From Planctomycetia bacterium (GTDB taxonomy: Bacteria > Planctomycetota > Planctomycetia > Pirellulales > JACPPG01), in NCBI GenBank assembly GCA_016191115.1, contig JACPPG010000026.1:62001-126000 (forward strand): a stretch of 64,000 nucleotides of DNA, written 5' to 3'. Under the pieces are notes generated by a model that worked only from the letters and a program-made list of their open reading frames with translations, searched no databases and was not told where the DNA came from. Shown here piece after piece: positions 866-25,137 of this stretch. The position numbers and the translations under genes were made by a program. Each line of letters begins with the position of its first letter. Position 1 is the stretch's first letter.

Positions 866-1372
866 GCGTCGCCCTCCTCCTGAGGGCTTGCCACAATCGA
901 GTACTCAAGCGCCGCCCGGCCGTCGACAATTTCCGTCAATCAGGCGCGGTGCTACCGCCAAATCGGCACCGGCCGATCAGAAGGTCGTTCCCGTGTGGAA
1001 TGCACGTGGGAGAACGCTAGATTGCGTGGCGGGGCGGAGGAGTCTAGCAGGGAAGGGGGAGTTGGGCCAGATGAATCGCAATCCTGCCTGACGAAGGGCA
1101 GAACCCAATACTCTTTTCGGTCGCGCGGATGGTGCCGGTAGAGGAGAAGTTGGTGCTCAGGTCGAGCTTTACGGCCGGGTGCGGACGGCGGCTCGTTGGA
1201 GGGGCCGCGACGGCCGCTGGGATTTTGGCCGTAATCTCCTTGAGAATTCCCCAGCCGGGCGATAGCTTAAAGCCCTGAAAACCTCGCGAAGGGACGGACG
1301 ATCGCGGGAATTCCGGCATGGACCAATGCTGGCCGGTCTTTGCTTCACGCCGATTCCGCACGACAACAGACG
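866..1372. other. Intergenic region between fabH and the large secreted oxidase
   Basis: This 507-nt divergent spacer should hold the promoters of both flanking genes. The end next to fabH carries its Shine-Dalgarno. I see no convincing -35/-10 pair, hairpin with a T-tract, or RNA gene. Short open frames here on either strand have no recognisable content. Confidence 0.5.
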
Positions 1373-4300
1373 ATGATTCGCACCAGAGAAGCGGGCAGAA
1401 GTTCCGTGCGCTCCCGTCGCGCCGCTCGTTGCACATCGCGCCGCAAGCGCATGCTACTGGGCGAAGTCTTGGAAGCCCGCTGGATGCTCGCGCAGACCAC
1501 CGGGCTGCCGCTCGATGATATCGATGCGGCGAATCCTTCCGCGCTTCTGTCGGCGAATGCCGGCGGCGGCGCCGATGCCGCCGGCCCCAGGATCACAAAT
1601 CTGCTAGTGGCCGGCACTGACTGGTCGAGCCTGTTTCGAGGGCAATTGGTGGCCGGCGGCTTGGGAACTACGGCTGGTTACGCCATCCCGGCCGGCGCTA
1701 ACCAACTGAAGTCCTTGCCCTGGAGCGGCCTCAATCAAATTGTCGTGCAGTTCAGCGAGGACGTGAACGTTCAGCAGGACGATCTTGCCGTCAACGGCGT
1801 GGCGGTGCCCCTCTATGGTTACAACGGCTTCAGCTACAACGGGGCAACGTTCACGGGCACCTGGACCCTGACGACGGCAATCGGCAACGACAACGTGACG
1901 CTCGCTCTGGACGGCCATTCGGCGACCGGCGTGCGCGACACCGGCGGCAACCTGCTCAACGGCGAATGGACCAACGGCGCAAGCAGTTTTCCTTCGGGCG
2001 ACGGCACGGCGGGCGGCGACTTCAATCTCTTATGGCACGCGCTCCCTGGTGATTTCAACCAGGATGGGGCGGTCAACGTCTCGGATATTCAGCAAGTCGC
2101 GACATCCTGGCTGCAAGGAAATCCCCTGCGGGATGGCAACGCCGACGGCATTGTCGACATCAGCGAGGTGCAGCTCGTCGCGGAAGCATGGCTCGCGGCA
2201 ACGGCTCCCGACACGCAACCCCCTTCGGCGCCCGCCAGCTTGACCGCCACGGCCGCGGGCACGACGCAAATCAACATGAGCTGGCCAGCCGCGACCGACA
2301 ATGTGGCGGTTACCGGATACCGCATCGAGCGACAAGGGCCTGGCGGCGGCGGCTTCGTGGAGATCGGCACCGCGGTCGGCACGACGTACAACGACACCGG
2401 TTTGATCCCGAATACCGCTTACAGCTATCGCGTCCGTGCCACCGACGCGACCGGCAACCTTGGGCAGTATTCGCCGGTGGCGGCCGCCACGACCTTGGCG
2501 CCAGTGGGGCTCGTGGCTGCCTACGCTTTCCGCGAGGGGAGTGGGACGACCGTTACCGATCTCTCCGGCTACGCCAATACCGGCGCATTGAGCGGGGCCA
2601 CGTGGTCGACAGGCGGCAAGTACGACAATGCCCTGTCGTTCAACGGATCGAATGCCCTGGTCACGGTAGCCGACAGCGCTTCGCTCGATTTGACGACGGG
2701 AATGACACTCGAGGCTTGGGTGAATCCCTCGGTCATCGACGCAGCATGGCGCGACGTGATTTATAAGAGAAGCGACGTCTACTACCTGGAAGGTTCTTCG
2801 CCTCAAGCTGAAGCGCCCGCCACGGGCGGCACGTTCAGCTCGGGCGTTGTTGCCGGAACCGCGGGCCTTCCGACAAACACCTGGTCGCACGTGGCGGCCA
2901 CTTATGACGGAACAACGATGCGGCTCTACGTCAACGGCGCGCAGGTGGCCAGTCGCGCCCAGACCGGGCCGATTCAGACGTCCTCCGGGGTATTATCGAT
3001 CGGCGGCGACAGCCTGAACGGCCAATACTTCGCCGGCCTGATCGACGAGGTCCGCATCTACAACCGGGCCCTGAGCCCCAGCGAAATTCAGGCCGACATG
3101 GCCACGCCGGTGGACCCCACGCCGGATACGACGTCCCCTTCGGTTTCGGTCACTGCGCCGGCGAACGGCGCCAACGCCAGCGGCAATGTCACGATCAATG
3201 CCACGGCCTCGGACAATGTCGGCGTAGTGGGCGTGCAGTTCTTGGTCGACGGTGTGCCAATGGGCGCGGAAGACATGACCGCTCCTTTTAGTCTTTCTTG
3301 GGACTCGTCGCAGGTGGCCAACGGGCAGCATACGCTATCGGCACGTGCCCGCGATGCGGCGGGAAATAGCAAGCTATCGACCGCCATCACGATCAATGTG
3401 AGCAATGTCAACAATCCCGCGTTGGTCGGCCACTGGTCCTCGGTGATGGATTGGCCGCTCGTGGCGATCAACATGGTGCTGTTGAACGACGGCAAGATTC
3501 TCATGTGGGATGGGGGAGCCGATTTCAGCCAAGGCGGGCAATCAGCGCAGATTTGGGACCCGGCCACCAATACGTTCACCGACGTCCCCGTTGCCAACCC
3601 TGACGGCAGTGAGAGGGACATATTCTGCGCGGGACAAACCGTTCTGGCCGACGGCAGGGTCCTGCTTGTAGGGGGCCACGCGCTCAACAACCCCGATTTG
3701 GTGGGGGCCGCCATGTCCAATATCTTCGACCCAGCGACAGGGCAGTGGACTCTGGCACCGGACATGGCGTACGGCCGCTGGTATCCCACTGCGACGGCGC
3801 TCCCCGATGGCCGCGCGATCACCATCGGCGGTTCGGACACCAGCTTCACCGACTACATCCCGACGCCGGAAATCTTCGACCCAGTCACAAACACCTGGAG
3901 CCAATTAACCGGCGCCGATCAAGCCATTCCCAACTACGCCTTTGTCTACGTCCTGCCGAACGGGAACGTGTTGGCAGCCGGCTCGGACGAGTCGCCCATG
4001 GCGACCTATTCCCTGAACCTCAGCACGCGCACCTGGAGTGTGGTCGACCCCACGGTTCTGAACGCCGGCAGCGGCGTGATGTACCTGCCGGGCAAGGTCA
4101 TGAAGACGGGCAGCTCGTACGTGCCGGGCGTTCAGATACCCTACGTGGGCGTTCCTTCCGCGGCGACGACGTACGTGCTGGACATGACCCAGCCTTCTCC
4201 CGCCTGGCAGCAGACCGCGTCCATGGCCAATCCGCGCACGCACCTCAACTTGACGGTGCTGCCGGACGGCAATGTCGTGGCGATCGGCGGATCGAGCGAT

Positions 4301-6421
4301 ATGAGCGGCGAGCGTGACCAGTACGCCGTGCTGCCGGCCGAGATGTGGTCTCCGACCACCAAAACGTGGACGACGATGGCCAGCATGCAGACGCCGCGAA
4401 TGTATCACTCGACCGCACTGCTACTGCCGGACGGTCGCGTCCTGTCGGCGGGAGGCGGACGCGACGGCGGAGCGACCGACTATTTGAACGCGGAGATCTA
4501 TTCTCCGCCTTATCTCTATAAAGGCGCACGGCCCACGGTCACGTCGGCGCCGGACATTGTCAGCTACGGCTCGAATTTCTTCGTTCAGACGCCGGACGCG
4601 ACGGACATCGCCTCGGTATCGCTCATCCGCAACGGCTCGGTCACGCACGCCGACGACATGGATCAGCGCTTCGTGCCGCTAGTGTTCACGCAGGGGTCCG
4701 GCGGCCTCAACGTGCAAGCGCCGGCCGACGCCAACCTGGCGCCGCCGGGCGAGTACATGCTGTTCATCGTCAACCATAACGGCGTGCCGTCGATCGCGCC
4801 GATGGTGCACCTGCCCGCCGTGTACGAGGACGTGCAGCCGCCGACGGCGACCACGGGCCTGGCCGCGACCGGCGCGGTCGGCACCGCCGCGCTCGGTTGG
4901 AACGCAGCCACCGACAACAATGGCGTCGCCCACTACAACGTGTACCGCTCGACGACGGCCGGATTCACCCCCAGCGTCGCCAACCTGGTGGCCCAGCCGA
5001 CCACCATCAACTACACCGACACCGGTCTGGCGGCAGGCACGTACTACTACCGCGTCGCCGCGGAAGACGCCGCCGGAAACGTCGGCCCCGCGTCTGGTCA
5101 GGCGAGCGCCACCGTGGCGGCCGACACCGTCGCGCCGTCGGTGAGTGTCACCAGTCCGTCCAACGGGGCGTCAATTTCCGGGACCGTCGCCGTCAACGCC
5201 ACGGCTTCCGACAACATCGGCATCGCGGGCGTGCAGTTCCTGCTCGACGGCAACGATGTCGGGACGGAAGACACTGTCGCACCGTACTCATTCAGTTGGA
5301 ACACGCTTACCACCTCCAGTGGGACCCACGTCCTCCGAGCCCGCGCGCGGGATACAGGCGGGAACACGACGCTGTCCGCCTCGATCAACGTGACCGTTTC
5401 CAACGCCGTTCCCAATGGTCTGGTCCTGGCCATGGGATTCGAGGAGGCCACGGGAACCACCACGAGCGACCTCTCCGGGCATGGCAACACCGGCACGCTC
5501 AGCGGCGCGACCTGGTCCACGAGCGGCAAGTACGGCAACGCGCTTGTGTTCAACGGCTCGAGCGCGCTAGTGACCGTCGCCGACAGCGCGTCGCTGGATT
5601 TGACGACGGGAATGACGCTCGAGGCGTGGGTCAATCCTTCGCTCGGCGGCGGATGGCGAGACGTAATCTACAAGGCCAGCGACGTCTATTACCTGGAAGG
5701 CTCGTCGTCGCCGTCAGGAGCGCCGGCCATGGGAGGCACGTTCAGCGCCAACTCGCTATTTGGCGCGGCGGCGCTGCCGGTCGATACGTGGTCGCACGTG
5801 GCCGCCACGTACAACGGAACGACCATGCGGCTGTACGTCAACGGGACGCAGGTCGCCAGTCGCGCCCAGACCGGGTCGATTCAGGTGTCGACCGGCGCCC
5901 TTTCGATCGGCGGCGACAGCCTGTATGCGCAGTTCTTTGCGGGCATGATCGACGAGGTCCGCATCTACAGCCGCGCACTAAGCGTGAGCGAAATTCAGAG
6001 CGATATGAACATGCCGATTGGCGGCGCGGGGGGCGGTTCTGGCGCCGCAATGGCTGTGGCCGGCGCGGACCCGCGGGCGGCGTTCGAGGTCTTGGCGTTC
6101 GACGACGCCGGCAACTTGGCCGCGGTCCAGGCCATCGGCAGCGTCGCTGGATCGGCCGCCGATCTCCTCGCCAGTCAATCGGCCGCGGTCAACCTTATGG
6201 CCGATGCGTTGCCAGGCTCGCGGCGGCGCACTTTCGACGCAAAGCCGTTCGCACGATTTCCGGCCGACGACGGCCGGACTGTGGCCAATGCCCTGGCGGA
6301 CCCAGCGGCGGCAGCGCCGCACACGCGGTCCGAGCGCGTTCTCGACGCGGTATGGGCCGAATTCGATTCGCTCGACGCGCATACGCCCGGCAAACATCGG
6401 CGCGGCCATCCATTGGCCTAA
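1373..6421 (+). CDS. Secreted modular copper-radical oxidase (galactose/glyoxal oxidase-like) with LEPR-XLL-type N-terminus, dockerin, FnIII, Ig and LamG modules
   Basis: Large extracellular protein of 1682 residues. Order: basic N-terminus with the LEPR-XLL-like motif EVLEARWMLAQ; a dockerin-like calcium-binding pair (about 226-279); FnIII (283-378); LamG (380-578); Ig-like (588-680); a kelch-type oxidase domain ending in a DUF1929-like module (683-1145); then FnIII (1155-1247), Ig-like (1255-1345), LamG (1350-1550) and a C-terminal tail. The oxidase core matches galactose oxidase at every cofactor position: Cys752 (IFCAGQ) and Tyr804 (GRWYPTA) for the thioether, Tyr1011/His1012 (RMYHSTALLLPDGR) and His1092 (THADDMDQRF). 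Substrate is unknown; alcohol or aldehyde oxidation with H2O2 release is the family chemistry. The flanking FnIII/Ig/LamG sets are near-duplicates. I chose the ATG at 1373; an in-frame TTG at 1340 adds 11 residues. No clear Shine-Dalgarno decides. Confidence 0.85.
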   Translation: MIRTREAGRSSVRSRRAARCTSRRKRMLLGEVLEARWMLAQTTGLPLDDIDAANPSALLSANAGGGADAAGPRITNLLVAGTDWSSLFRGQLVAGGLGTTAGYAIPAGANQLKSLPWSGLNQIVVQFSEDVNVQQDDLAVNGVAVPLYGYNGFSYNGATFTGTWTLTTAIGNDNVTLALDGHSATGVRDTGGNLLNGEWTNGASSFPSGDGTAGGDFNLLWHALPGDFNQDGAVNVSDIQQVATSWLQGNPLRDGNADGIVDISEVQLVAEAWLAATAPDTQPPSAPASLTATAAGTTQINMSWPAATDNVAVTGYRIERQGPGGGGFVEIGTAVGTTYNDTGLIPNTAYSYRVRATDATGNLGQYSPVAAATTLAPVGLVAAYAFREGSGTTVTDLSGYANTGALSGATWSTGGKYDNALSFNGSNALVTVADSASLDLTTGMTLEAWVNPSVIDAAWRDVIYKRSDVYYLEGSSPQAEAPATGGTFSSGVVAGTAGLPTNTWSHVAATYDGTTMRLYVNGAQVASRAQTGPIQTSSGVLSIGGDSLNGQYFAGLIDEVRIYNRALSPSEIQADMATPVDPTPDTTSPSVSVTAPANGANASGNVTINATASDNVGVVGVQFLVDGVPMGAEDMTAPFSLSWDSSQVANGQHTLSARARDAAGNSKLSTAITINVSNVNNPALVGHWSSVMDWPLVAINMVLLNDGKILMWDGGADFSQGGQSAQIWDPATNTFTDVPVANPDGSERDIFCAGQTVLADGRVLLVGGHALNNPDLVGAAMSNIFDPATGQWTLAPDMAYGRWYPTATALPDGRAITIGGSDTSFTDYIPTPEIFDPVTNTWSQLTGADQAIPNYAFVYVLPNGNVLAAGSDESPMATYSLNLSTRTWSVVDPTVLNAGSGVMYLPGKVMKTGSSYVPGVQIPYVGVPSAATTYVLDMTQPSPAWQQTASMANPRTHLNLTVLPDGNVVAIGGSSDMSGERDQYAVLPAEMWSPTTKTWTTMASMQTPRMYHSTALLLPDGRVLSAGGGRDGGATDYLNAEIYSPPYLYKGARPTVTSAPDIVSYGSNFFVQTPDATDIASVSLIRNGSVTHADDMDQRFVPLVFTQGSGGLNVQAPADANLAPPGEYMLFIVNHNGVPSIAPMVHLPAVYEDVQPPTATTGLAATGAVGTAALGWNAATDNNGVAHYNVYRSTTAGFTPSVANLVAQPTTINYTDTGLAAGTYYYRVAAEDAAGNVGPASGQASATVAADTVAPSVSVTSPSNGASISGTVAVNATASDNIGIAGVQFLLDGNDVGTEDTVAPYSFSWNTLTTSSGTHVLRARARDTGGNTTLSASINVTVSNAVPNGLVLAMGFEEATGTTTSDLSGHGNTGTLSGATWSTSGKYGNALVFNGSSALVTVADSASLDLTTGMTLEAWVNPSLGGGWRDVIYKASDVYYLEGSSSPSGAPAMGGTFSANSLFGAAALPVDTWSHVAATYNGTTMRLYVNGTQVASRAQTGSIQVSTGALSIGGDSLYAQFFAGMIDEVRIYSRALSVSEIQSDMNMPIGGAGGGSGAAMAVAGADPRAAFEVLAFDDAGNLAAVQAIGSVAGSAADLLASQSAAVNLMADALPGSRRRTFDAKPFARFPADDGRTVANALADPAAAAPHTRSERVLDAVWAEFDSLDAHTPGKHRRGHPLA

Positions 6422-7241: not shown

Positions 7242-7583
7242 TTCCTCAAGACGGTGCTGGCCAGCACGTACAGCTCGCCCTGGGCGCCCTGTCCAAAACC
7301 TTTGACGAACAGGCCGAGCTTCCGGTCATTCAAGCCCAGAATCAGCTCTTGGATCAGACCTGTGCTCAGATCGGCATAGAACAACCGCCCGTCGGGCGAG
7401 GCGAAGCCGCGGGGAAAAATCGCCGAACACATACTTGCCGGTCAGTTGCGGGACTGCCGTGCCGTGATAGACGAAACCGCCGATGATGGCAACCCCTTCG
7501 TCACGATCGTACTGGGCCAATGGATCGATCAGGCCGGCGGGCGAGCCAGGACTGTTGGCCGTGACATTGCCGGTCGCCAGCAC
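7238..7583 (-). pseudogene. Remnant of a PQQ-type sorbosone/glucose dehydrogenase-like gene
   Basis: Two overlapping frames together resemble the C-terminal end of soluble sugar dehydrogenases. One (7583 down to about 7410) reads AQYDRDEGVAIIGGFVYHG and GKYVFGDFS; the other (about 7432 to 7238) continues PDGRLFYADLSTGLIQELI and LGLFVKGFGQGAQGELYVL. They join at a T5-C4 run near 7410-7420, so a one-base indel separates them. Upstream, an in-frame stop and no start or propeller blades show that the 5' part is missing before the tRNA gene. The stop overlaps the next gene as ATGA. A sequencing indel could explain the frameshift but not the missing N-terminal part. Confidence 0.65.
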
Positions 7584-8029: not shown

Positions 8030-8800
8030 ATGGGATCAAGCGACCCAGTGCCGCGCATCGAGCTGTCGCCGGGGACCGATCCGGCGCGCAGCCACCGCCT
8101 GGATGTGCCGTCGCACCTGCGGGAGGGGCTCACCCTGCTCCTGCAGGCCCATGACTACGCCCTCGATCTAGGGCAGGACCCATGGGACCTGGCTGTGGAG
8201 ATTCATGTTCTCCGTGCGGTGAAACTGACGAATAGCGATCTCCGCTGGTTGGCGTGCAAGGGCTACATCGAGTTGGCGGTGGAAATCGCCGATCGCGACG
8301 ATCCCACGCGCCGTTTCCACAACACGGGACCGCTCAGCATCAATGACTCGACGTGCGCGGTTCTCACGCCCGATGGCGCCGCGGTGGCGCGCGACGCTTG
8401 TTCGGCGGAATCGGTGCTGGCCCTGGCCCGCCCCGTTGAGCCAGTGCATCTGGGGCCTGCCGCGCCCGACGCGCGGGCCGTCCCCAAGTGGGATCACCAA
8501 CGGCGACAGTTGCGCGTCGGCGGCCGCATCGTCAAGGAATTCAAACTCCCTTCGCCGAACCAGGAGACCGTGCTCGTGGCCTTCGAGGAAGAAGGATGGC
8601 CGGCGCGGATCGACGACCCACTCTCGCCCGTCTCGCCCCTCGATCCGCGCCGGCGCCTTCACGACACCATCAAGGCGCTGAACCGAAATCAAAAAGCCCC
8701 GCTGATCCGTTTCATGGGAGACGGCAGCGGCGAGGGCATCCGGTGGGAGGTGAGCCAGGCCTCGGGCGACGGCACAAGCGGACCAGCGGCGTTGGGATAA
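8030..8800 (+). CDS. Conserved protein of unknown function, possible winged-helix C-terminus
   Basis: A 256-residue soluble protein with no signal peptide or membrane segment. The N-terminal half is alpha-rich (REGLTLLLQAHDYALDLGQ, then LTNSDLRWLACKGYIELAVE), which could be a helix-turn-helix-like fold. The C-terminal third (RQLRVGGRIVKEFKLPSPNQ, EEEGWPARIDDPL, RRLHDTIKALNRNQ, IRFMGDGSGEGIRWE) looks like a compact domain in which a helical pair is followed by a beta wing. I recall the 'RLHDTIKALNRNQ ... IRF.GDG.GEGI.WE' pattern from planctomycete proteins of unknown role, but no function is established. It stands alone, 229 nt before the papain-fold gene. Confidence 0.75.
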   Translation: MGSSDPVPRIELSPGTDPARSHRLDVPSHLREGLTLLLQAHDYALDLGQDPWDLAVEIHVLRAVKLTNSDLRWLACKGYIELAVEIADRDDPTRRFHNTGPLSINDSTCAVLTPDGAAVARDACSAESVLALARPVEPVHLGPAAPDARAVPKWDHQRRQLRVGGRIVKEFKLPSPNQETVLVAFEEEGWPARIDDPLSPVSPLDPRRRLHDTIKALNRNQKAPLIRFMGDGSGEGIRWEVSQASGDGTSGPAALG

Positions 8801-9056
8801 CGCGGCTTGTGCTTGGCGCGATCGTTGTACTAACAACGACACGTCGAAAGCGAAGTCTCGGCTGCTTCCCCAGACCTTCCCCCTAGCTCACCTTGGCCGC
8901 GCGCGCTCCCCGACTATTCTGAGCGCTTGGGGCCGAGTCGATTGACGGCCCGCGACGGTGCCTCGCGGGGAGTGATCCCGTGCCGCAACAAGCTTTCGCG
9001 GCGGGCTTCCGTTTTTGGACGCATCGATCGTCACGGAGCACTCTCAGGATCGACGC

Positions 9057-9914
9057 ATGGCACACTTCGAACCACGAGGGCTCGGCTGGCTCCCCAGCGC
9101 ACCCGATTTTCGCGACTATGCGCCCGGAACGCCCCCGGCGGACTACCTGCTGAAGCGGCTGCGCGATTCGGGGGCGACAAGCGCAAAGCGGGCCACGAGC
9201 GTCGATCTGCGAGAATACTTCCTCGACGTTTACGATCAGCAGACGTTGAACGCCTCGACGGCCCATGCCTGCGTCGGTTTGGTCGAGTACTTCGAGCGGC
9301 GGGCCCACGGGCGTTTGCTACGGCCGTCACGGCTGTTTTTGTACCAGAATACGCTGAAATTCGCCGGCGTTGCCGCGGATTGCGGGGCCGATTTGCGGAC
9401 GACGCTAAAGGCCATGACTCGCTGCGGCGTGCCCCCAGAGCGGTACTGGCCCTATGAAGTCGAACGCCTCCACGTGCAGCAGGACGCCTTCCTGTATTCT
9501 TTCGTCGAGCCGTATCGGTCCACAAGTTACGTCCGGCTCGACAGCCGCAAGTCGCCCGGCTACGTGAACCTGGAGACGGTCAAGGCCTTCCTTGCAGCCG
9601 GTTTCGTCGCGGCATTTGGGTTCCCCGTTCCCAATTCGCTCTCCTCCGACGCCAACATCCCTTATCGGCCCACCTTCGATTCCATCCAAGGGGGCCAGGC
9701 CCTGCTGGCCGTAGGCTACGACGACCGCTGGCTGCGCGGCTCCCGCGGGGCACTCTTAGTGCGCAGCTCGTGGGGGCCAGCCTGGGGGGACGAAGGGTAC
9801 GGTTGGCTCCCCTACGCCTACGTCGAGGAGCAGCTCGCCGTCGACTTTTGGACGCTGTTGCATCCCGGCTGGATCGATTCGGGCGAATTCGAGACGCCTG
9901 ACTTGCCGTTGTGA
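9057..9914 (+). CDS. Papain-fold (C1 family) pseudopeptidase lacking the catalytic triad
   Basis: The 285-residue protein has the outline of prokaryotic C1 cysteine peptidases: RDYAPGTPP near the N-terminus, the active-site helix after DVYDQ, GGQALLAVGYDDRW, and LLVRSSWGPAWGDEGYGWLP. Each catalytic position is changed. The nucleophile position in DQQTLNAS is Ser67 rather than Cys, the His position in GGQALLAVGYDD is Gln214, and the Asn position in VRSSWG is Ser237. The oxyanion Gln61 remains. No signal peptide is seen. This suggests a binding or scaffold role rather than proteolysis. The ATG at 9057 follows CAGGA at good spacing; an in-frame TTG at 9015 is less likely. The gene precedes the polysaccharide locus by 262 nt on the same strand, so a link is possible but unproven. 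Confidence 0.82.
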   Translation: MAHFEPRGLGWLPSAPDFRDYAPGTPPADYLLKRLRDSGATSAKRATSVDLREYFLDVYDQQTLNASTAHACVGLVEYFERRAHGRLLRPSRLFLYQNTLKFAGVAADCGADLRTTLKAMTRCGVPPERYWPYEVERLHVQQDAFLYSFVEPYRSTSYVRLDSRKSPGYVNLETVKAFLAAGFVAAFGFPVPNSLSSDANIPYRPTFDSIQGGQALLAVGYDDRWLRGSRGALLVRSSWGPAWGDEGYGWLPYAYVEEQLAVDFWTLLHPGWIDSGEFETPDLPL

Positions 9915-10176
9915 CATGAATGCGCTCGCGCGCTCACTCAGTCGGCAACCCAACAACGAAAGGACCAACTCGGACGAAGACAACGGCTGCGCGGACTCGG
10001 GCGCCGCCCGTGCGCCGCTCGATCGGTCCGATGGTTCCGCATCCACCGCGGGCACGGGCGAGGATTCCCCAGATCGTCTCCACAGCTCCCACACAGAGTC
10101 CGTTGCTGACCGACATTCTTGAGGCAAAATCTTTATTCAACCCCCTCTCTATCGAACCGACACCACGAGGCCAAGT

Positions 10177-11739
10177 ATGGTCAGCCGCATCCCCACTAAC
10201 GGACACCCCTCCGCGAGCGCGCGCAGCACGCGCGACGCTCTCCGTATCCTGTTCCGCCACCAGCGGAAAATGATCGCCTTCTTCGGAACGGTCGTCGCCC
10301 TGGTGATCGTCGGCCTGATTTTCTATCCACGGACGTACGTCTCCGACGCACGGCTGCTGGTGCGATTGGGCAAAGAAAGCGTGGGCCTGGATCCCACGGC
10401 CACGCTCAGCCAGACCGTGGACATCGAGGGATCGCGCGAGACCGAGATTAACTCGGAGCTGGAAATCCTGCGGAGCCGTGCTCTGCTCCAGGACGTCGTC
10501 GAGCATATGGGACCCGAGACCATCTTGGGGACCGCGCCCGGCGGCAAGCGCGGCTGGATCGCGACGGCATTCACACCCGTCACGGCCGTCGCGTCGTGGC
10601 TGTTCCAGACCGGCAACGTGGGGCCTGACGAGCGCGCCATCACGAAGCTCGAGAAGAGCATCAAGGTTACCTCGCCGCGGAAGTCGAACGTCATCGTGAT
10701 CAGATGCCGTGCCCGCGATCCCGAGCTTGCCCAGCGCATCCTCGAGACGTATTTGAACGCCTATCAGGTATGGCACGTGAAATCGAATCGGACGAGTGGA
10801 TCGTACGAATTCTTCGTTCAACAGTCGGACTTGCTCCGCCAGCAATTGGAGAAGGCCACGAGCGAGCTGCGCGACGCGAAGAACGAGGGCAGCCTGGTGT
10901 CGATCGCCGGCCAGCGGCAGAACATCCAGAACCAGCTCGACGCGATCGAAGCCGGGATGCTCACCAACGGGCGGTCCTTGGCCGCGGCGGAATCGAAGAT
11001 CGCGGCCCTGCAGAAGGAGCTCGGCGACGTGCCGTCGCACGTCAGCGCCGAAGAGACGGCCGGCTTGCCGAACGTCGCCGCCGACGCCATGCGAAACGAG
11101 CTCTACAAGCTGCAAATGCGGGAAAAGGAGGCGACGTCTCGCTTCACGGATGAGCATCCGAACGTCAAGGCCTTGCGGCGCCAGGTGGCGGAGACGCAGA
11201 AGATACTCGACGAGCAGGAGGCCCGCCGTACCCAGACGACGAAGAAGGTCAACCTGGTCCATCAGAGCGTGGAAACGGACTTGATGTCCGAGACGGCGCT
11301 CGCCGCGTCGTACAAGGCCGAGGCGAAGTCGCTCCAGGACCAGTACGCGGCGATTCAATCGAAGATTCGCAAGCTCAACGACAACGAGTTCCGCATCACC
11401 GAGCTGGCCCGCCGCGTCGACCTGTTGGAGACGGATTATCGCAACTACACGAACCATCGCGAGCAGGCGCGCATCGATTCCGCGCTCGAGGCCGGGCGGA
11501 TCTCGAACGTCAACGTGGTGCAGCCGGCGACGTTCGTCGCCAAGCCGGCCAGCCCGCGCGTTCGCCTGACGTTGTTGTTGGGGCTGATCGTGGGGGCGCT
11601 GGGCTCGGTGCTCGTGGCGTTCATCGCCGAGTATTTCGACCGGTCGTTGAAGACCCCCGAACAGATCGAGCACGAGTTGGGCATTCCGGTTCTGCTCTCA
11701 GTCCCTCGTGGCTTTCGGCACGAGTTGCTCCAGAATTGA
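10177..11739 (+). CDS. Wzz/GumC-type polysaccharide co-polymerase (chain-length determinant)
   Basis: Inner-membrane protein of 520 residues that sets chain length or couples synthesis to export of surface polysaccharide. TM1 lies at about 31-50 (MIAFFGTVVALVIVGLIFYP), the Wzz fold follows (SDARLLVRLGKESVGLDPTA, ETEINSELEILRSRALLQDV), then a long periplasmic coiled coil (about 205-420, rich in Glu, Arg, Lys and Gln), and TM2 lies at about 464-486. The tail DRSLKTPEQIEHELGIPVL is the standard cytoplasmic Wzz/GumC ending. It opens the polysaccharide operon; the kinase-like partner starts 12 nt downstream. In many systems the two interact. No outer-membrane Wza-type gene is seen next to it. Confidence 0.93.
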   Translation: MVSRIPTNGHPSASARSTRDALRILFRHQRKMIAFFGTVVALVIVGLIFYPRTYVSDARLLVRLGKESVGLDPTATLSQTVDIEGSRETEINSELEILRSRALLQDVVEHMGPETILGTAPGGKRGWIATAFTPVTAVASWLFQTGNVGPDERAITKLEKSIKVTSPRKSNVIVIRCRARDPELAQRILETYLNAYQVWHVKSNRTSGSYEFFVQQSDLLRQQLEKATSELRDAKNEGSLVSIAGQRQNIQNQLDAIEAGMLTNGRSLAAAESKIAALQKELGDVPSHVSAEETAGLPNVAADAMRNELYKLQMREKEATSRFTDEHPNVKALRRQVAETQKILDEQEARRTQTTKKVNLVHQSVETDLMSETALAASYKAEAKSLQDQYAAIQSKIRKLNDNEFRITELARRVDLLETDYRNYTNHREQARIDSALEAGRISNVNVVQPATFVAKPASPRVRLTLLLGLIVGALGSVLVAFIAEYFDRSLKTPEQIEHELGIPVLLSVPRGFRHELLQN

Positions 11740-11751
11740 GGACCACCTGCG

Positions 11752-12438
11752 ATGATTACTCTTACGCAAGAATCCGCTGCGGCGCTCGAACCGCGCCGCA
11801 TCAGCGGTGACCCGCTGTCGGAGCGCTACCAGGCCCTGGTACAGCGCCTCCGCGCCGCCGGCGACCTGTCGGTCAACGTGGTGAAGACTCTCGGCGTTAC
11901 CAGTTGCGCGAGCGGGGCAGGCGCCACCACCATGGCCGCCAACCTGGCCGTGGCGGCCGCCCAGATCGGCCAAGAGCCGGTGCTGCTCGTGGACTTGAAC
12001 ATCGCCCGCCCGGCGCTGGCCGCCCGGTTCGGCATGTCGCGCGAGCTGGGGCTGCACGAGGCGCTCGTCGAAGGGCAACCACCCAGCGATTGCGTCAAGC
12101 CGACGCCCATCGCCAACCTGTCGCTGTTGGCCGCCGATCGAGCGGGCGACCCGGACGCACTGCGCGCGGATCGCTCGCGGATCAACCACGTGCTCGAATC
12201 GCTCGAGCGAGATTTCGGTTTTATCGTTGTCGACTTGCCGGCCACGGAGTCGAGCCTTTGTTTCGCCACTGCCGGATTGTTGGACGCCGTGCTCTTGGTG
12301 ATGGAAGCCGAGCGGACGCGATTGGAATCGGCCGTCCAAGCCAAGGAGCGGCTGCTCCACGCCCAGGCGAATGTCTTGGGGGTCATCCTGAACAAGCGGC
12401 CCCAGCACATTCCCGACTGGCTGTATCAGAGACTCTAA
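11752..12438 (+). CDS. BY-kinase/CpsD-like ATPase homologue with degenerate Walker motifs
   Basis: A 228-residue cytoplasmic protein in the usual place of the tyrosine autokinase that partners Wzz. The fold is clear: ERYQALVQRLR (normally the kinase adaptor helix), then the P-loop region, VLLVDLNIARPALAARFG, the Walker B-like FGFIVVDLPA, and DAVLLVMEAERTRLESAVQA. The P-loop reads ASGAGATTMAANLA, where kinases have GEGKST, so the catalytic Lys is Ala58. Walker A' reads DLN instead of DxD. The C-terminus ends in LYQRL with no tyrosine cluster. Phosphorylation activity is therefore unlikely; a structural role with the co-polymerase fits better. It lies 12 nt after wzz and 30 nt before the sugar transferase. 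Confidence 0.87.
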   Translation: MITLTQESAAALEPRRISGDPLSERYQALVQRLRAAGDLSVNVVKTLGVTSCASGAGATTMAANLAVAAAQIGQEPVLLVDLNIARPALAARFGMSRELGLHEALVEGQPPSDCVKPTPIANLSLLAADRAGDPDALRADRSRINHVLESLERDFGFIVVDLPATESSLCFATAGLLDAVLLVMEAERTRLESAVQAKERLLHAQANVLGVILNKRPQHIPDWLYQRL

Positions 12439-12468: not shown

Positions 12469-13545
12469 ATGATCCGCCTAACGAATCTCTTCCGTCGGCG
12501 GGGCAGTTCGACGAACCGCGCCGACTGGCAGGACACGCTGCACTCCGTCGATCGGATGCGCGCCATCCTGGAGCGCGAGCGGATGCGCGCCGATCGCGGG
12601 AATTCCAGCTTTGCCCTGGTGACGTTCACCTTTCCCGGCCCGTGCAATGACGCGACCCTCTCGACGCTCGCGCGGATCCTCGGCGAGCGGCTGCGGGCCA
12701 CCGACGACGCAGGGCTGATGAGCCCGCGGCGCGTCGGCATCGTGCTGCCCGAGACGCCCGCCGCGGGCGCGTGGACCTTGGCGGAACGGATTTGCGAGCT
12801 TTTGCCCGCCGACATGGCGCGGCCTGAATGCGACGTCTACGTGTACCCTTCAACCCAGGAGCAACCGGGGCTGGAGGCCGCTTCCGAGGACGCGGCGGAG
12901 GAAGACGGCCGCGAAGCGCTGCCGATGCAAGTGCTTTTCGCGCAACCGTTGCCAGGCTGGAAGCGGGCGATCGACGTGATCGTGGCCGGCACGGCGCTGG
13001 TCGTGGCCGCGCCTCTGTTGGTCATCGTGGCGGTGGCGATCAAGCTCTCGTCCCCTGGCCCCATTTTCTTCCGGCAGCGCCGCCACACGATCGGCGGGCG
13101 CGGCTTCACGATGTACAAGTTCCGCACGATGTGCGTCGACGCCGAGGCGCAAAAGGCGTCGTTGCGGCAGTTCTCCGAGCAGGACGGACCGGCTTTCAAG
13201 ATGAAACACGATCCACGGATAACGCGCCTCGGCCGCGTGCTGCGCAGCACGAGCATCGACGAGCTCCCCCAACTGTTCAACGTGCTCTTGGGAGATATGT
13301 CGCTGGTCGGCCCGCGGCCTCTCCCGTGCGACGAATCGAGGCGTTGCACGTCGTGGCAGCAGCGGCGGCTGGACGTGACGCCCGGCTTGACCTGCATCTG
13401 GCAGGTGCGCGGCCGATCGAAGGTCTCCTTCGCGGACTGGATTCGCATGGACATCCAGTACATCCGGTCGCGATCCCTGGCCAACGACGTCAAGCTGATC
13501 GCCCAGACCGTTCCGGCCGTCGTGCTTCGGCGTGGCGCCTGCTAG
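12469..13545 (+). CDS. Initiating undecaprenyl-phosphate sugar-1-phosphate transferase with GGDEF-like N-terminal domain
   Basis: Membrane enzyme of 358 residues that loads the first sugar phosphate on undecaprenyl phosphate. The C-terminal half is a standard bacterial sugar transferase: TM helix (about 167-190), GPIFFRQRRHTIGGRGFTMY, KFRTMCVDAEAQ, the DE-containing STSIDELPQLFNVL, SLVGPRPLP, and GLTCIWQVRGRSKVSFADW. The first 130 residues resemble a degenerate GGDEF/nucleotidyl-cyclase fold (VDRMRAILERERMRADRGNS, then FALVTFTF and RRVGIVLPET) without a GGDEF signature. This may be a regulatory domain, possibly sensing c-di-GMP or protein partners; that is inference. It is third in the operon. 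Confidence 0.92.
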   Translation: MIRLTNLFRRRGSSTNRADWQDTLHSVDRMRAILERERMRADRGNSSFALVTFTFPGPCNDATLSTLARILGERLRATDDAGLMSPRRVGIVLPETPAAGAWTLAERICELLPADMARPECDVYVYPSTQEQPGLEAASEDAAEEDGREALPMQVLFAQPLPGWKRAIDVIVAGTALVVAAPLLVIVAVAIKLSSPGPIFFRQRRHTIGGRGFTMYKFRTMCVDAEAQKASLRQFSEQDGPAFKMKHDPRITRLGRVLRSTSIDELPQLFNVLLGDMSLVGPRPLPCDESRRCTSWQQRRLDVTPGLTCIWQVRGRSKVSFADWIRMDIQYIRSRSLANDVKLIAQTVPAVVLRRGAC

Positions 13546-13580: not shown

Positions 13581-15857
13581 ATGACCTCCACGGTCACGAC
13601 AGGTCGGCGGACAAGGCCGCGGATTCTTCTGCTGGCCTGCGGCTGCAGTCCCGATCGCGGAAGCGAAGGCGGGGTCGGCTGGAATCGCGCCGTCGAGTGC
13701 GCCAAGCACTTTGACACCTGGGTCATTTGCCAGACCTATCAAAACAAGGAGGAAGTCGAGCGCTATCTTCGCGACTATGGGCCAATTCCCGGACTGCACT
13801 TTCACTTCGTCCCCCACAAGACGTGGGAAGGGCATCTGTGGAGCGCGCCGGGAATGGGCTATATCTCCTACAACTTGTGGCATCGCCGCGCGTTTCGCGT
13901 GGCACGACGGCTGCACGAGCAGCTTCGATTCGACCTCGTGCACCAGTTGAATTTCTGCGGCTTTCGCGAGCCGGGCTACCTGTGGAAGCTGGACGCGCCG
14001 TTCGTGTGGGGACCGATCGGCGGCACGCACAACTATCCGTGGCGCTTCCTGGCCGAGGCGGGTGTGCGTGACGGGTTCGTCGAAACGCTGCGCAGCATCA
14101 CGAACTCCTTGCAACTGCGCTTCGCCCCCCGCGTGCGCATGGCCGCCGACCGCGCCGCCGCGTTGATGGCCGCCAACTCCACCGGTCAGGCCCAGTTCGC
14201 CGCGGCGCACGGCATCACGCCGACTGTGATGCTCGAGGTGGGCGTCAGCCACGTCGCCGATGCACCGGCCCGAACCGAGATGCGCTCCGGTCCTCTGCGC
14301 ATCCTGTGGTGTGGAGAACTCATTCCGCGCAAGGCGCTGTCCTTGCTCTTGCGAGCCATTGCGCAGTTGCCGGAAGAGGTTCGCTGCGAGGTCCGCGTGT
14401 TGGGGCGCGGACCCCTGGAACGCCGCTGGAAACGGTTGGCGAACCGACTGGGCGTCGACAAACGCGTGCAATGGCTCGGCTGGGTGCCTCACCACGAAGC
14501 GCTAAAGCAGTACGCCTGGGCCGACGTCTTCGCATTTACCAGCCTGCGCGATACGACGGGCACTGTCGTGCTCGAAGCTCTTTCCAACGGCTTGCCCGTC
14601 GTGTGCCTGGACCATCAGGGCGTTCACGACGTCGTTACCGACGAATGCGGCGTAAAGGTGCCGGTGACCGACCGTCGCCAGGTTGTCGTAGACTTGCGCG
14701 ACGCACTCGTGCGGCTGGCTCAAGACCCCATCTTGCGCGAGCGATTGAGCCACGGAGCGTTGGCTCGTGCCCGCTATTACCACTGGTCGCAACAGGGGGC
14801 ACGCATGGCCGAGATTTATCGCCGTGTACTGTCAGACGCGAACTCCGCGGCGGGCGGGTCGCCCTTGCTTTCGACCGGCGAGCCGGCCGTCGGCAAAGCC
14901 TTGCACACGATTCAGCGTCTCAGTCGCTCTGGCCGCATACTGCGCAAATCGCTCCAAGGGGCGATGGAGTGGACAGCGGCGCGGACGGCCACGGGGCTTA
15001 ACGCGCTTTTCGGTCCCCGTCCCGGTGAGACCTTCGGGATCCTGATGTATCATCGCGTCACCGACCATTTCGACGGCGTCGCGACTCCCACATGGAACGT
15101 GACCCCCGCGCAGATGCGCAGGCAGCTAGCGGGCCTCATCGCCCGCGGCTTTGTGCCTTGGTCGCTCGCCAAATTGCTCGACGCGTTGCGCGACGCGCGG
15201 CCCATTCCGCACGGCGTGTTCGCGGTCACGTTCGACGACGGCTACGAGAACAACTACTCGGAAGCGTGGCCCATCCTCCGCGAGCTGCAAGTCCCGGCTA
15301 CGATCTTCCTGGCGACCGCCTTCCTCAATTCCGACCGGCCGTTTCCTTTCGATGACTGGTCGGCCGCCGGCTCGTCCCGCGTGCCGCCGAGCTCGTGGCG
15401 CCCCCTCTCCACGCGGCAGTGCCAGGACATGCTCGACGACGGGCTCATCGACTTCGGCTCGCACACGCACACGCACGAGCGCTTCCTCGGCAGGCAAGAT
15501 GAATTCGACGGCGATTTGGCCCGCTCGCTCGACGTGCTCAGCGCCTGCTTCGGCGTCACGAAACCCGTGTTTGCCTTCCCCTTCGGGGCGAGCAGCCCGG
15601 AACTGATCGCCGTGGCGAAGAAACGCGGCGTCACGTGCAGTTTCTCCACGCGACCGGCGCGCGTTTTTCGTGGCGACGACGCCTACGGTTGGGGGCGATT
15701 CCAAGTGAACGACGGCGACTCGCCCGCCCTGCTGGCCGCGAAGCTCTCGGGCTGGTACACGGCGGCGGACACTGCGCGTAAGGCGATCAGCCATCCCATC
15801 GTGGCCGTCGCGCGATCGGCACACCGCGCGAACGATCGCGAGGTGGCGCACGTTTAG
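13581..15857 (+). CDS. Fusion of a GT4-type glycosyltransferase and a NodB-type polysaccharide deacetylase
   Basis: 758 residues in two enzyme domains. The first (about 1-415) is a GT-B glycosyltransferase: LLLACGCSPDRGSEGGVGWN, FVWGPIGGTHNYPWRF, LWCGELIPRKALSLLLRA, and TVVLEALSNGLPVVCLDHQG with the acidic Glu of the EX7E region. A linker (about 415-480) follows. The second (about 483-758) is a carbohydrate esterase family 4 domain: GILMYHRVTDHF, FAVTFDDGYENNY with Asp552/Asp553, and DFGSHTHTHERF with His628 and His632 as metal ligands. One polypeptide may add a sugar and de-N-acetylate an amino sugar. The frame is continuous from an ATG at 13581, 35 nt after the sugar transferase. Confidence 0.92.
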   Translation: MTSTVTTGRRTRPRILLLACGCSPDRGSEGGVGWNRAVECAKHFDTWVICQTYQNKEEVERYLRDYGPIPGLHFHFVPHKTWEGHLWSAPGMGYISYNLWHRRAFRVARRLHEQLRFDLVHQLNFCGFREPGYLWKLDAPFVWGPIGGTHNYPWRFLAEAGVRDGFVETLRSITNSLQLRFAPRVRMAADRAAALMAANSTGQAQFAAAHGITPTVMLEVGVSHVADAPARTEMRSGPLRILWCGELIPRKALSLLLRAIAQLPEEVRCEVRVLGRGPLERRWKRLANRLGVDKRVQWLGWVPHHEALKQYAWADVFAFTSLRDTTGTVVLEALSNGLPVVCLDHQGVHDVVTDECGVKVPVTDRRQVVVDLRDALVRLAQDPILRERLSHGALARARYYHWSQQGARMAEIYRRVLSDANSAAGGSPLLSTGEPAVGKALHTIQRLSRSGRILRKSLQGAMEWTAARTATGLNALFGPRPGETFGILMYHRVTDHFDGVATPTWNVTPAQMRRQLAGLIARGFVPWSLAKLLDALRDARPIPHGVFAVTFDDGYENNYSEAWPILRELQVPATIFLATAFLNSDRPFPFDDWSAAGSSRVPPSSWRPLSTRQCQDMLDDGLIDFGSHTHTHERFLGRQDEFDGDLARSLDVLSACFGVTKPVFAFPFGASSPELIAVAKKRGVTCSFSTRPARVFRGDDAYGWGRFQVNDGDSPALLAAKLSGWYTAADTARKAISHPIVAVARSAHRANDREVAHV

Positions 15858-24114: not shown

Positions 24115-25137
24115 ATGAACACTGCCGCTAGCCCCCTCGTCGAAGACCCTTCATCCACCCTCGCGCCCGATTCGCCGCCGACCCAGACGTTGTCGCGACG
24201 AAGTTACCGGGTCGACGCACCCGGCCCGGCCCCGGGCGTCGCCTTCGCGGCGGCGCTCGACATGACGACCGACGCGGTCTTCTTCCTCAGCACGGACTCG
24301 CGGATCATCGACGTCAACGCGGCCGCGGCTGGTAGCCTGGGCTACCGTCGTGGCACGTTGAGCGGCATGAGCCTTGGCGACGTTCTGGCCGAGGGAACGC
24401 CTGGCGGTTTGCAAACCGCGATTCGTCGGCTTCTGAATCGCCAGGCGCTCAAGGAAGCGGTGCCGGGATGGCAACGCGTGAAGAATGGCCGCTTGCTTCC
24501 CGTCGTAGTCCACCTGCGGCTCGTTGAGGGCGCCGCCCAACCGCTGCTGGTGGCCGTTGCGCGCGCTCAGAATAATCCGGGGCGTGCCGCTCGAGATCAC
24601 GACCACGTGACATCCTTGCCGACGCGGGCAGCGTTGGACCTGCGTCTGGACAAGGCGGAAAGACGCGCCCGGCGGCGACGCGGCCGGTTCGCGGTCTTGT
24701 TCATCGATGTCGACGGCTTCAAGACGGTCAACGACACGAGCGGCCACCAGACAGGCGACCTGGTGCTGCGGACCTTCGGGCAGCGGCTGCTGGCGTGCGT
24801 GCGTCCCGGCGACTTCGTCGCGCGGTACGGCGGCGACGAGTTCGTGGCCCTGATCGAGAATGTCCGCAATCGCGGCGAGGTCCGCCGCATTACCGCGCGG
24901 ATCCGCGCGGCGCTTCGTGCGCCTGTCGACGTCGATGGCCGTCGGCTGTGCGTCTCGGCCAGCGTGGGCGTCGCTATCGGCCACGCATTGTCGTCGGCCC
25001 GAAGTCTGCTCCACGAGGCCGATCAGGCGATGTATCGTGCCAAGCGGGCACGGAAAGGCGACCGCGGCCGCGAATCCGGCCAGCCTGCCGCGGCGTATCC
25101 GGCGGGCGTGCGTCGCTGGACGAAAAGCGCAGGCTAA
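24115..25137 (+). CDS. PAS-GGDEF diguanylate cyclase
   Basis: A 340-residue soluble protein. A PAS domain (about 45-150: DMTTDAVFFLSTDSRIIDVN, AAGSLGYRRGTLSGMSLGDV) precedes a GGDEF domain (about 165-320). The active-site loop RYGGDEF is at 237-243 with residues 239-243 intact, the nucleotide/metal Asp is in FIDVDGFKTVNDTSGHQTGD, and an inhibitory I-site RPGD (230-233) lies exactly five residues before it. It should make c-di-GMP and be product-inhibited. No transmembrane segment, so the PAS would sense an internal signal. It starts 50 nt after the last glycosyltransferase on the same strand and could be co-transcribed, which would link c-di-GMP to polysaccharide output. Its stop abuts the convergent PEP-CTERM gene. 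Confidence 0.93.
   Translation: MNTAASPLVEDPSSTLAPDSPPTQTLSRRSYRVDAPGPAPGVAFAAALDMTTDAVFFLSTDSRIIDVNAAAAGSLGYRRGTLSGMSLGDVLAEGTPGGLQTAIRRLLNRQALKEAVPGWQRVKNGRLLPVVVHLRLVEGAAQPLLVAVARAQNNPGRAARDHDHVTSLPTRAALDLRLDKAERRARRRRGRFAVLFIDVDGFKTVNDTSGHQTGDLVLRTFGQRLLACVRPGDFVARYGGDEFVALIENVRNRGEVRRITARIRAALRAPVDVDGRRLCVSASVGVAIGHALSSARSLLHEADQAMYRAKRARKGDRGRESGQPAAAYPAGVRRWTKSAG

Follow-up and report, generated by a model that had tools for sequence, protein, structure and literature searches.

Papain-like pseudoproteases and pseudo-peptidases of prokaryotes are already known kinds of protein, as far as the accessible parts of the literature go. SERA5 of Plasmodium is described as a papain-like pseudoprotease whose nucleophile is replaced by Ser and whose role is non-enzymatic (PMC4671257, PMC5500368), and the pseudo-orthocaspases of cyanobacteria as prokaryotic pseudo-peptidases with a replaced catalytic His/Cys pair (PMC6426788). 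Furthermore, loss of the active site has been listed among the forces that shape C1A peptidases in a paper, the accessible part of which contains no planctomycete pseudo-peptidase (PMC10380794). Here, a stretch of 64,000 nucleotides from a Planctomycetia bacterium (contig JACPPG010000026.1, positions 62,001 to 126,000; referred to as the window) was analyzed, in which the gene at 9057-9914 encodes a papain-fold protein with all three residues of the catalytic triad replaced. Its triad-lost relatives form a single group under purifying selection, and the gene lies between two operators of 11-bp direct repeats and behind a gene starting at position 8030 (gene 8030), its most frequent neighbor. 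Rather than cutting proteins, the pseudo-peptidase probably helps to switch the neighboring surface-sugar genes on or off.

The closest described protein is xylellain of Xylella fastidiosa (3OIS), one of the short prokaryotic C1A peptidases. It shares the fold and a similar length with the window protein, and the match includes the N-terminal segment. However, xylellain has Cys-His-Asn in the alignment where the window protein has Ser-Gln-Ser, and the window gene shares its cassette with gene 8030 and the repeats, which active relatives mostly lack. With SERA5, the window protein has in common the papain-like domain, the Ser in place of Cys and an apparently non-enzymatic role; it differs in that SERA5 is a eukaryotic protein with a role in egress, for which the accessible text states only the Ser-for-Cys replacement and describes no link to a DNA operator. 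The pseudo-orthocaspases are prokaryotic pseudo-peptidases like the window protein, but they are homologs of caspases without the papain fold, and the available part of their description mentions no cassette of regulator and operator. In the literature searched, which was partly accessible, nothing was seen that links a papain pseudo-peptidase with a repeat operator.

Activators of the PhoB/OmpR type are known to use direct-repeat boxes at the -35 region. The locus resembles these systems in its direct repeats of about 11 bp, which abut or overlap the -35 of a sigma-70-like promoter, and in the order of the C-terminal elements in a low-confidence model of the gene 8030 product. It differs from them in that this product has no match to Trans_reg_C or a receiver domain, carries an additional N-terminal winged helix in the model and has a putatively dead peptidase as neighbor. 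The MarR-type regulators ZitR (5yi0) and MepR (4ld5) are its best, weak fold matches, with E = 0.017 at best and no Pfam match, and the locus has tandem direct repeats, whereas MarR sites are palindromes.

Fold and Active Site of the Pseudo-Peptidase

The reading frame consists of 285 codons without internal stops. No evident signal peptide was seen by eye, and the protein is probably cytosolic. The Pfam family Peptidase_C1 matched residues 203-250 only (E = 0.0012) with 19.4 bits, which is below the gathering score of 20.7, and a scan of the protein with NCBIfam gave no match. By sequence search, the closest solved relative is xylellain (3ois_A, E = 1e-28, residues 9-267). The AlphaFold2 model, calculated from 20 sequences, reached a predicted local distance difference test (pLDDT) of 81.5 and a predicted template modeling score (pTM) of 0.84, and xylellain 3ois was found at rank 1 of the Foldseek search with this model (E = 1e-17). 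The papain-type fold read from the sequence in the initial annotation is confirmed.

In the alignment with intact homologs, Q61 corresponds to the oxyanion Gln, while S67 stands at the position of the catalytic Cys, Q214 at that of the His and S237 at that of the Asn, exactly as first noted. Compared with an active C1A peptidase, the window protein possesses the papain fold with homology across most of its length and the oxyanion-hole Gln, and it lacks the Cys-His-Asn triad. Judged by its sequence, it is a papain-fold pseudo-peptidase and not a member of the active family.

The homologs are referred to by locus (L), genome (G) and family (f) numbers. No complete triad was found at another place in the window protein, as homologs with an intact triad align across the same positions. 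A relocation of the nucleophile to the Cys of the nearby AHACVG motif (C72) could be ruled out, since this Cys coexists with a separate catalytic Cys in the triad-intact protein of L046 (SCTAHACVG) and is present in only 17 of the 44 triad-lost proteins. The possibility of a dead subunit of an active paralog was ruled out for the source genome (6.03 Mb), in which no second Peptidase_C1 gene was detected: the query matches only itself at E ≤ 1, and the same holds for the profile. It is unlikely in general, because a separate Peptidase_C1 gene (E ≤ 0.001) was found in only five of the 40 genomes bearing a pseudo-peptidase gene (G017, G052, G100, G582, and G626). No anti-phage family from PADLOC was assigned to the pseudo-peptidase or to the product of gene 8030.

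A Single Triad-Lost Clade Under Selection

The homologs come from three overlapping sets, comprising 97 relatives, 397 class genomes and 396 order genomes, and from one scan of public contigs. In total, 60 regions with flanks were retrieved; six matches at E ≤ 1e-8 lie outside this set (G036, G276, G404, G415, G591, and the second match of G267). G415 and the fragment G651 (L112) resemble partial matches of the pseudo type and are outside the counts. The alignment comprised 77 proteins and the query, namely 44 triad-lost proteins with the query included and 34 intact ones (33 without L065, a duplicate of L033). L065 and L112 were excluded throughout, L049, L108-L111 and L113 additionally from the trees, and L090 and L082 also from the tree of 69 rows.

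Position 61 is Gln in 32 of the 44 triad-lost proteins. At position 67, Ser was found in 35, Ala and Thr in three each, Gly in two and Asp in one, and Cys in none. Position 214 is occupied by Gln in 29, Thr in six, Ala in three, His in two and other residues in four, and position 237 by Ser in 17, Asn in 15, Thr in five, Ala and Cys in two each and others in three. Gln61, Ser67, and Gln214 occur together in 26 proteins. Graded forms of the four positions extend from Q-S-H-N (L062) over Q-S-Q-N and Q-S-Q-S (window) to drifted forms inside and outside family f13, and some lineages have drifted at all four.

In trees calculated with the four active-site columns masked, all 27 intact rows fall on one side of a single branch, with a Shimodaira-Hasegawa-like approximate likelihood ratio test (SH-aLRT) of 86 for 71 rows, and 91/74 and 90% of the bootstrap trees for 69 rows. 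The window protein belongs to a set of eight (support 100/95), and the His-bearing proteins L062 and L068 are located inside the triad-lost group with modest support. On the tree, one change is needed for the presence of Cys67, so that the Cys loss fits a single event. His214 presence or absence takes three changes and that of Asn237 seven, so the Asn was lost or regained repeatedly. The initial annotation had proposed to check whether the three substitutions form a clade; taken together, they do not make up a single one. Likewise, the loss of all three residues applies to the window protein, but Asn is found in 15 of the 44 clade members, and only the Cys is lost universally.

The ratio of nonsynonymous to synonymous substitution rates (dN/dS) was calculated with the NG86 method for 14 pairs, of which 11 were pseudo-peptidases and three active proteins; dS was undefined for L092/L093, L086/L089, and L046/L047 and exceeded 1 in several pairs. 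At dS below 1, dN/dS was 0.094 (L058/L059) and 0.211 (L069/L071), and 0.11-0.32 was obtained for seven more distant pseudo-peptidase pairs with larger dS, resulting in 0.09-0.32 over the nine pairs with defined dS. None of the 78 examined frames contains a stop; a TGA flagged in G053 is the final codon of the match according to its coordinates. Furthermore, 57 columns are conserved in both the active and the Q-S-Q sequences, and the clade-typical residues L35, K118, F183, and P281 outside the triad are retained in most of the drifted members, too. The earlier suggestion of a selected pseudoenzyme instead of a decaying gene is borne out by these values and by the prevalence of Ser67 and Gln214 in one triad-lost group, and the triad-lost planctomycete proteins are, from sequence comparison, a selected pseudo-peptidase clade. 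Sublineages without Gln61 and other active-site residues still retain the fold landmarks, and in f13 the operators as well. For this reason, the function of the pseudo-peptidase seems to be independent of the active site.

Repeat Operators at Two Putative Promoters

Direct repeats spaced by 11 bp were identified at the putative promoters of the pseudo-peptidase gene and of the next operon (Table 1). The 17-bp spacing of the former promoter is shared by L055, L057, L058, and L059 (by eye). A three-unit tandem score was trained on the core lineage (seven loci) and its p-values were derived from Markov shuffles. Before the pseudo-peptidase gene it is significant (p ≤ 0.01) also in L054, L056-L059, and L061, and not in L055 (p = 0.113). 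A matrix built on seven promoters of the polysaccharide chain-length gene (Wzz) was scanned across 2.9 million positions, and the next matches were located upstream of Wzz in L061 and L060, upstream of the pseudo-peptidase gene in L061, just behind the pseudo-peptidase gene in L091 and upstream of Wzz in L092.

Outside the training lineage, the tandem score is significant at the same threshold upstream in 10 and downstream in 12 of 37 pseudo-peptidase loci, compared with none and one of 33 active loci. Eight of the 37, namely all six f13 loci, L061, and L067, are significant on both sides, and the same is true of six of the seven training loci. The families f16/f22 have a box of their own, TTCCCAT-N4-TTCCGTAG. 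The pattern TCCGTWG, picked by eye before counting and therefore counted post hoc, occurs upstream in 10 and downstream in seven of 12 loci (expected 0.6 and 0.5), on both sides in seven, and in none and one of the 33 active loci. In total, the pseudo-peptidase gene stands between two 11-bp-repeat operators in 21 of 44 loci, including seven by the post hoc pattern and six in the training lineage; the second operator is located at the promoter of the following gene.

A motif-free test of three-copy periodicity at periods 7-15 revealed that period 11 alone is raised in mean z beside pseudo-peptidase genes, with 1.27 upstream and 1.14 downstream (n = 44) and p ≤ 0.05 in nine of the 44 loci on each side. 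Beside active genes, mean z is 0.09 and -0.01 (n = 33). Within the window, only operators 1 and 2 score above 9. The 6-Mb genome contains 28 loose matches (six for a control pattern), among which only the two operators score above 12 and the next one 11.3; this search is blind to sites with weaker first two units. Antisense matches of the repeat score inside the pseudo-peptidase gene of f16/f22 (about 707-725 from the start) were set aside as a coding artifact of SWGxxWG codons.

The Partner Gene 8030

No family of Pfam or NCBIfam was found for the gene 8030 product. In particular, Pfam detected no receiver domain and no Trans_reg_C in it, and Trans_reg_C is also missing among the families of 32 members of set A3. 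Most of the top fold matches of its model are winged-helix regulators, with ZitR and MepR as weak hits, and the prediction of a winged-helix protein is weak. In the low-confidence model, the C-terminal half has the order of three strands followed by three helices, which is that of OmpR-type domains; C-terminal domains of response regulators appear at Foldseek ranks 24 and 48 only.

Relatives of gene 8030 were detected in 39 of the 40 genomes with a pseudo-peptidase gene (29 of 29 and 10 of 11 in two sets) and in five of 29 relatives without it (Fisher p ~1e-12, phylogeny ignored). The only one of these 40 genomes without gene 8030, G003, is 77% complete, and its contig begins 372 bp before the pseudo-peptidase gene. 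Gene 8030 adjoins the pseudo-peptidase gene in 28 of 44 loci, in 23 of them, including the window, upstream on the same strand within 765 bp and in five divergently; in L061, L096, and L080 only about 310-370 bp of upstream sequence are available. Among 33 active loci, it lies within 1.2 kb in two (L101 with 1145 bp and L033 with a degraded copy at 78 bp), which corresponds to p ~1e-7 if shared ancestry is ignored. Since there are only 0-5 copies of gene 8030 per genome, chance adjacency should be rare.

Repeats of 11 bp were also found away from pseudo-peptidase genes. G037, which has no pseudo-peptidase gene, carries them downstream of two gene 8030 copies (L117 and L118; in L118 CTCCACCAGAT CGCCCTCACAT CGCCTGTATCA), and L121 has them behind one copy. 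On account of the co-occurrence, the adjacency and these repeats, the gene 8030 product is proposed as the reader of the repeats.

The degraded relative upstream of the triad-intact Pirellulales homolog (L033:7450-8699) may be left over from a pairing that was lost, or may represent an intermediate. In L115, L119, and L130, copies of gene 8030 stand without a papain-like gene in the stretch beside Wzz-like, glycosyltransferase or deacetylase genes (by eye), which suggests an older association between gene 8030 and polysaccharide loci.

Genomic Context

The features of the locus are summarized in Table 1. Of the 44 pseudo-peptidase genes, at least 16 lie no more than about 5 kb from a PF02397 or Wzz gene, which is above the chance expectation of 1-2% estimated from copy number. 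In other loci, the next gene is Flp-pilin-like (f13), encodes a large surface protein (L063 and L073) or is heme-peroxidase-like (L072) or tail-sheath-like (L097), all by eye. With these varied downstream genes, the cassette looks portable with changing cargo. The position directly before a polysaccharide operon, pointed out in the initial annotation, thus holds in the window and in at least 16 of 44 loci, but the most frequent neighbor is gene 8030 with 28 of 44, and the operon was ruled out as a constant partner.

Table 1. Coordinates of genes and putative regulatory elements at the pseudo-peptidase locus of the window.
Feature	Position	Strand	Description
Partner gene (gene 8030)	8030..8800	+	256 amino acids; predicted MarR-like winged helix ~28-125; C-terminal beta-beta-beta-helix-helix-helix ~152-229
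Operator 1	8866..8897	+	Three 11-bp-spaced units TTCCCCAGACC TTCCCCCTAGC TCACCTTGGC; last unit overlaps -35
Putative promoter, pseudo-peptidase gene	8892..8920	+	-35 CTTGGC 8892-8897, 17-bp spacer, -10 TATTCT 8915-8920
Pseudo-peptidase gene	9057..9914	+	ATG start, 285 amino acids, papain/xylellain fold, triad S67-Q214-S237, Q61 kept
Operator 2	10065..10106	+	Four 11-bp-spaced units TTCCCCAGATC GTCTCCACAGC TCCCACACAGA GTCCGTTGC; last unit overlaps -35
Putative promoter, exopolysaccharide operon	10101..10130	+	CGTTGC 10101-10106, 18-bp spacer, CAAAAT 10125-10130
Wzz/GNVR-type polysaccharide chain-length protein, first operon gene	10177..11739	+	PF13807 over cut-off; TIGR03007 below cut-off
BY-kinase-like P-loop ATPase of the operon	11752..12438	+	Pfam, NCBIfam
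Polyprenyl glycosylphosphotransferase	12469..13545	+	PF02397; Pfam, NCBIfam
Glycosyltransferase family 4 fused to polysaccharide deacetylase domain	13581..15857	+	758 amino acids; Pfam

Some further genes were recorded, all but the last by eye. In the f13 loci L070, L076, L077, and L079, the gene after the pseudo-peptidase gene has an Flp-pilin-like start (e.g., DDGFVLSSELVMYGTMGVIGVGAG) followed by a long further part, and the corresponding gene of L097 resembles a contractile-tail sheath protein (VYVEEIPSG...). Upstream of the locus in the window, 1340-6421 (+) encodes a kelch/galactose-oxidase-like surface protein of 1693 amino acids with several repeated domains. A short frame at 7326-7583 (-) with GGFVYHG..P.LTGKYVFGDF resembles the terminal part of a PQQ-type sugar dehydrogenase and is probably a gene fragment between a PEP-CTERM gene and gene 8030. 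A PAS-GGDEF diguanylate cyclase, which may provide a second control input, is encoded directly after the polysaccharide genes at 24115-25137 (+).

Possible Function of the Cassette

The locus is best explained by a xylellain-type papain-fold protein that was re-used as partner in a small local regulatory cassette. Its parts would be gene 8030, encoding a putative double winged-helix protein, the pseudo-peptidase and two operators built of 11-bp direct repeats, which border on the -35 of the pseudo-peptidase promoter in one case and on that of the promoter of the next operon in the other. The spacing of the tandem repeats by one helical turn, their place at the -35 and the likely winged-helix neighbor suggest an activator on one face of the DNA. 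The gene 8030 product may thus bind one face of the repeats at both promoters in the manner of PhoB/OmpR and recruit RNA polymerase, by which the pseudo-peptidase and the downstream genes would be expressed together. The pseudo-peptidase might feed back on this regulator in one of two ways, holding it or taking up a peptide or protein signal in the old substrate cleft. The genes controlled would be the exopolysaccharide operon in the window and other genes in other lineages. That a portable two-gene regulatory cassette with a dead papain fold as co-regulator is present, with the catalytic death of the protein included in this joint judgment, is considered to have an even chance. The more specific proposal of a portable planctomycete cassette that is undescribed in the literature searched, in which a double winged-helix regulator and a pseudo-peptidase co-regulator or sensor act through a lineage-specific 11-bp operator at their own and the next promoter, is held with somewhat less than even confidence.

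Several observations weigh against this cassette. Neither Pfam nor sequence searches of the PDB assigned a DNA-binding family to the gene 8030 product, and its model, based on four sequences, is poor (pLDDT 62.5, pTM 0.42); Foldseek matches of this model reach E = 0.017 at best with template modeling scores of 0.20-0.32, and EDS1-PAD4, which is not a regulator, is found at rank 5. In f13, the operators flank the pseudo-peptidase gene while gene 8030 is located elsewhere in the genome, and at gene 8030 copies away from pseudo-peptidase genes, period 11 is significant downstream in three of 16 and upstream in none of 17 (mean z 0.31 and 0.11). No significant box was found on either side of 23 of the 37 non-training pseudo-peptidase loci; by the tandem score L062, L064, L068, L074, L082, L084, L086, L087, L090, L093, and L096 are boxless, as are L091 (p = 0.017 downstream) and most of f16/f22. 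The box sequence varies by lineage, since the matrix of the last two core units matched 0/6 and 0/6 in f13 and 0/12 and 1/12 in f16/f22, where the counts of the alternative pattern are post hoc. At lower ranks of the Wzz-promoter matrix, pseudo-peptidase loci are mixed with the active loci L050 (13.0) and L044 (12.1), and period 7 reaches p ≤ 0.05 downstream in seven of 44 pseudo-peptidase loci, with a mean z of 0.01. In addition, the support for the deepest branch of the tree (91/74) is only moderate.

The roles could be reversed, with the pseudo-peptidase itself binding the operators and gene 8030 being a co-factor or mere neighbor. A papain fold could be capable of this, as the papain-fold bleomycin hydrolase Gal6 binds nucleic acid. 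The operators at the f13 genes without adjacent gene 8030, the mostly boxless triad-intact loci (0/33 upstream, 1/33 downstream) and the basic residues K118 and R122, which are typical of the pseudo-peptidase clade and not of the active proteins, would fit such a role. However, G037 has 11-bp repeats behind two gene 8030 copies without any pseudo-peptidase gene, gene 8030 is present at another locus in each of the six f13 genomes, and the xylellain-like model of 285 amino acids leaves no added domain, so this assignment is regarded as unlikely. It is equally unlikely that the pseudo-peptidase serves the downstream polysaccharide or other machinery as a non-catalytic scaffold or chaperone and is co-regulated for this reason. 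The PF02397 or Wzz genes near at least 16 of 44 pseudo-peptidase genes and operator 2, which suggests co-regulation with the Wzz gene, are consistent with it, but a dedicated scaffold should follow its client, and the downstream genes vary widely while gene 8030 adjoins 28 of 44. The initial annotation had left the choice between a scaffold and a regulatory binding protein; regulatory binding is the better guess, and a polysaccharide scaffold does not suit the loci with other downstream genes.

Retention of another chemistry, with Ser as nucleophile or Gln, Ser, and Asn in amide or acyl transfer, is improbable. Silicateins employ Ser-His-Asn in a papain fold, and the joint conservation of Gln61, Ser67, and Gln214 in 26 of 44 proteins could be read in this direction. 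On the other hand, His214 is kept in only two of 44, position 214 is Ala, Thr, Ile, Met or Val in sister lineages, and Gln61 is missing in several lineages as well, among them f13 with fold and operators kept. Relaxed decay, by which the gene would be on its way out and its neighbors and repeats incidental, would fit the drift at all four active-site positions in some lineages, but it is already contradicted by the absence of internal stops in 78 frames, by dN/dS of 0.09-0.32 in the nine pseudo-peptidase pairs, by L35, K118, F183, and P281 in most drifted members and by the repeats on both sides, and is thus very improbable.

Significance for Planctomycetes

A Peptidase_C1 match over the cut-off is present in 24 of the 40 genomes with a pseudo-peptidase gene, and in 20 of these 24 the match is the pseudo-peptidase gene itself. 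Because members of the clade score near the Pfam threshold, they are at risk of being labeled as proteases. According to the cassette reading, a whole group of planctomycete papain-fold proteins would be dead and linked to a promoter element as well as to a partner gene without annotation. The clade provides a graded series of C-H-N, S-H-N, S-Q-N, S-Q-S and fully drifted forms, which may illustrate the path from a catalytic fold to a binding protein. The paired operators are a concrete candidate switch for planctomycete exopolysaccharide genes, and if the proposed cassette is real, bacteria would offer an example of a protease fold that became a dedicated co-factor of transcription.

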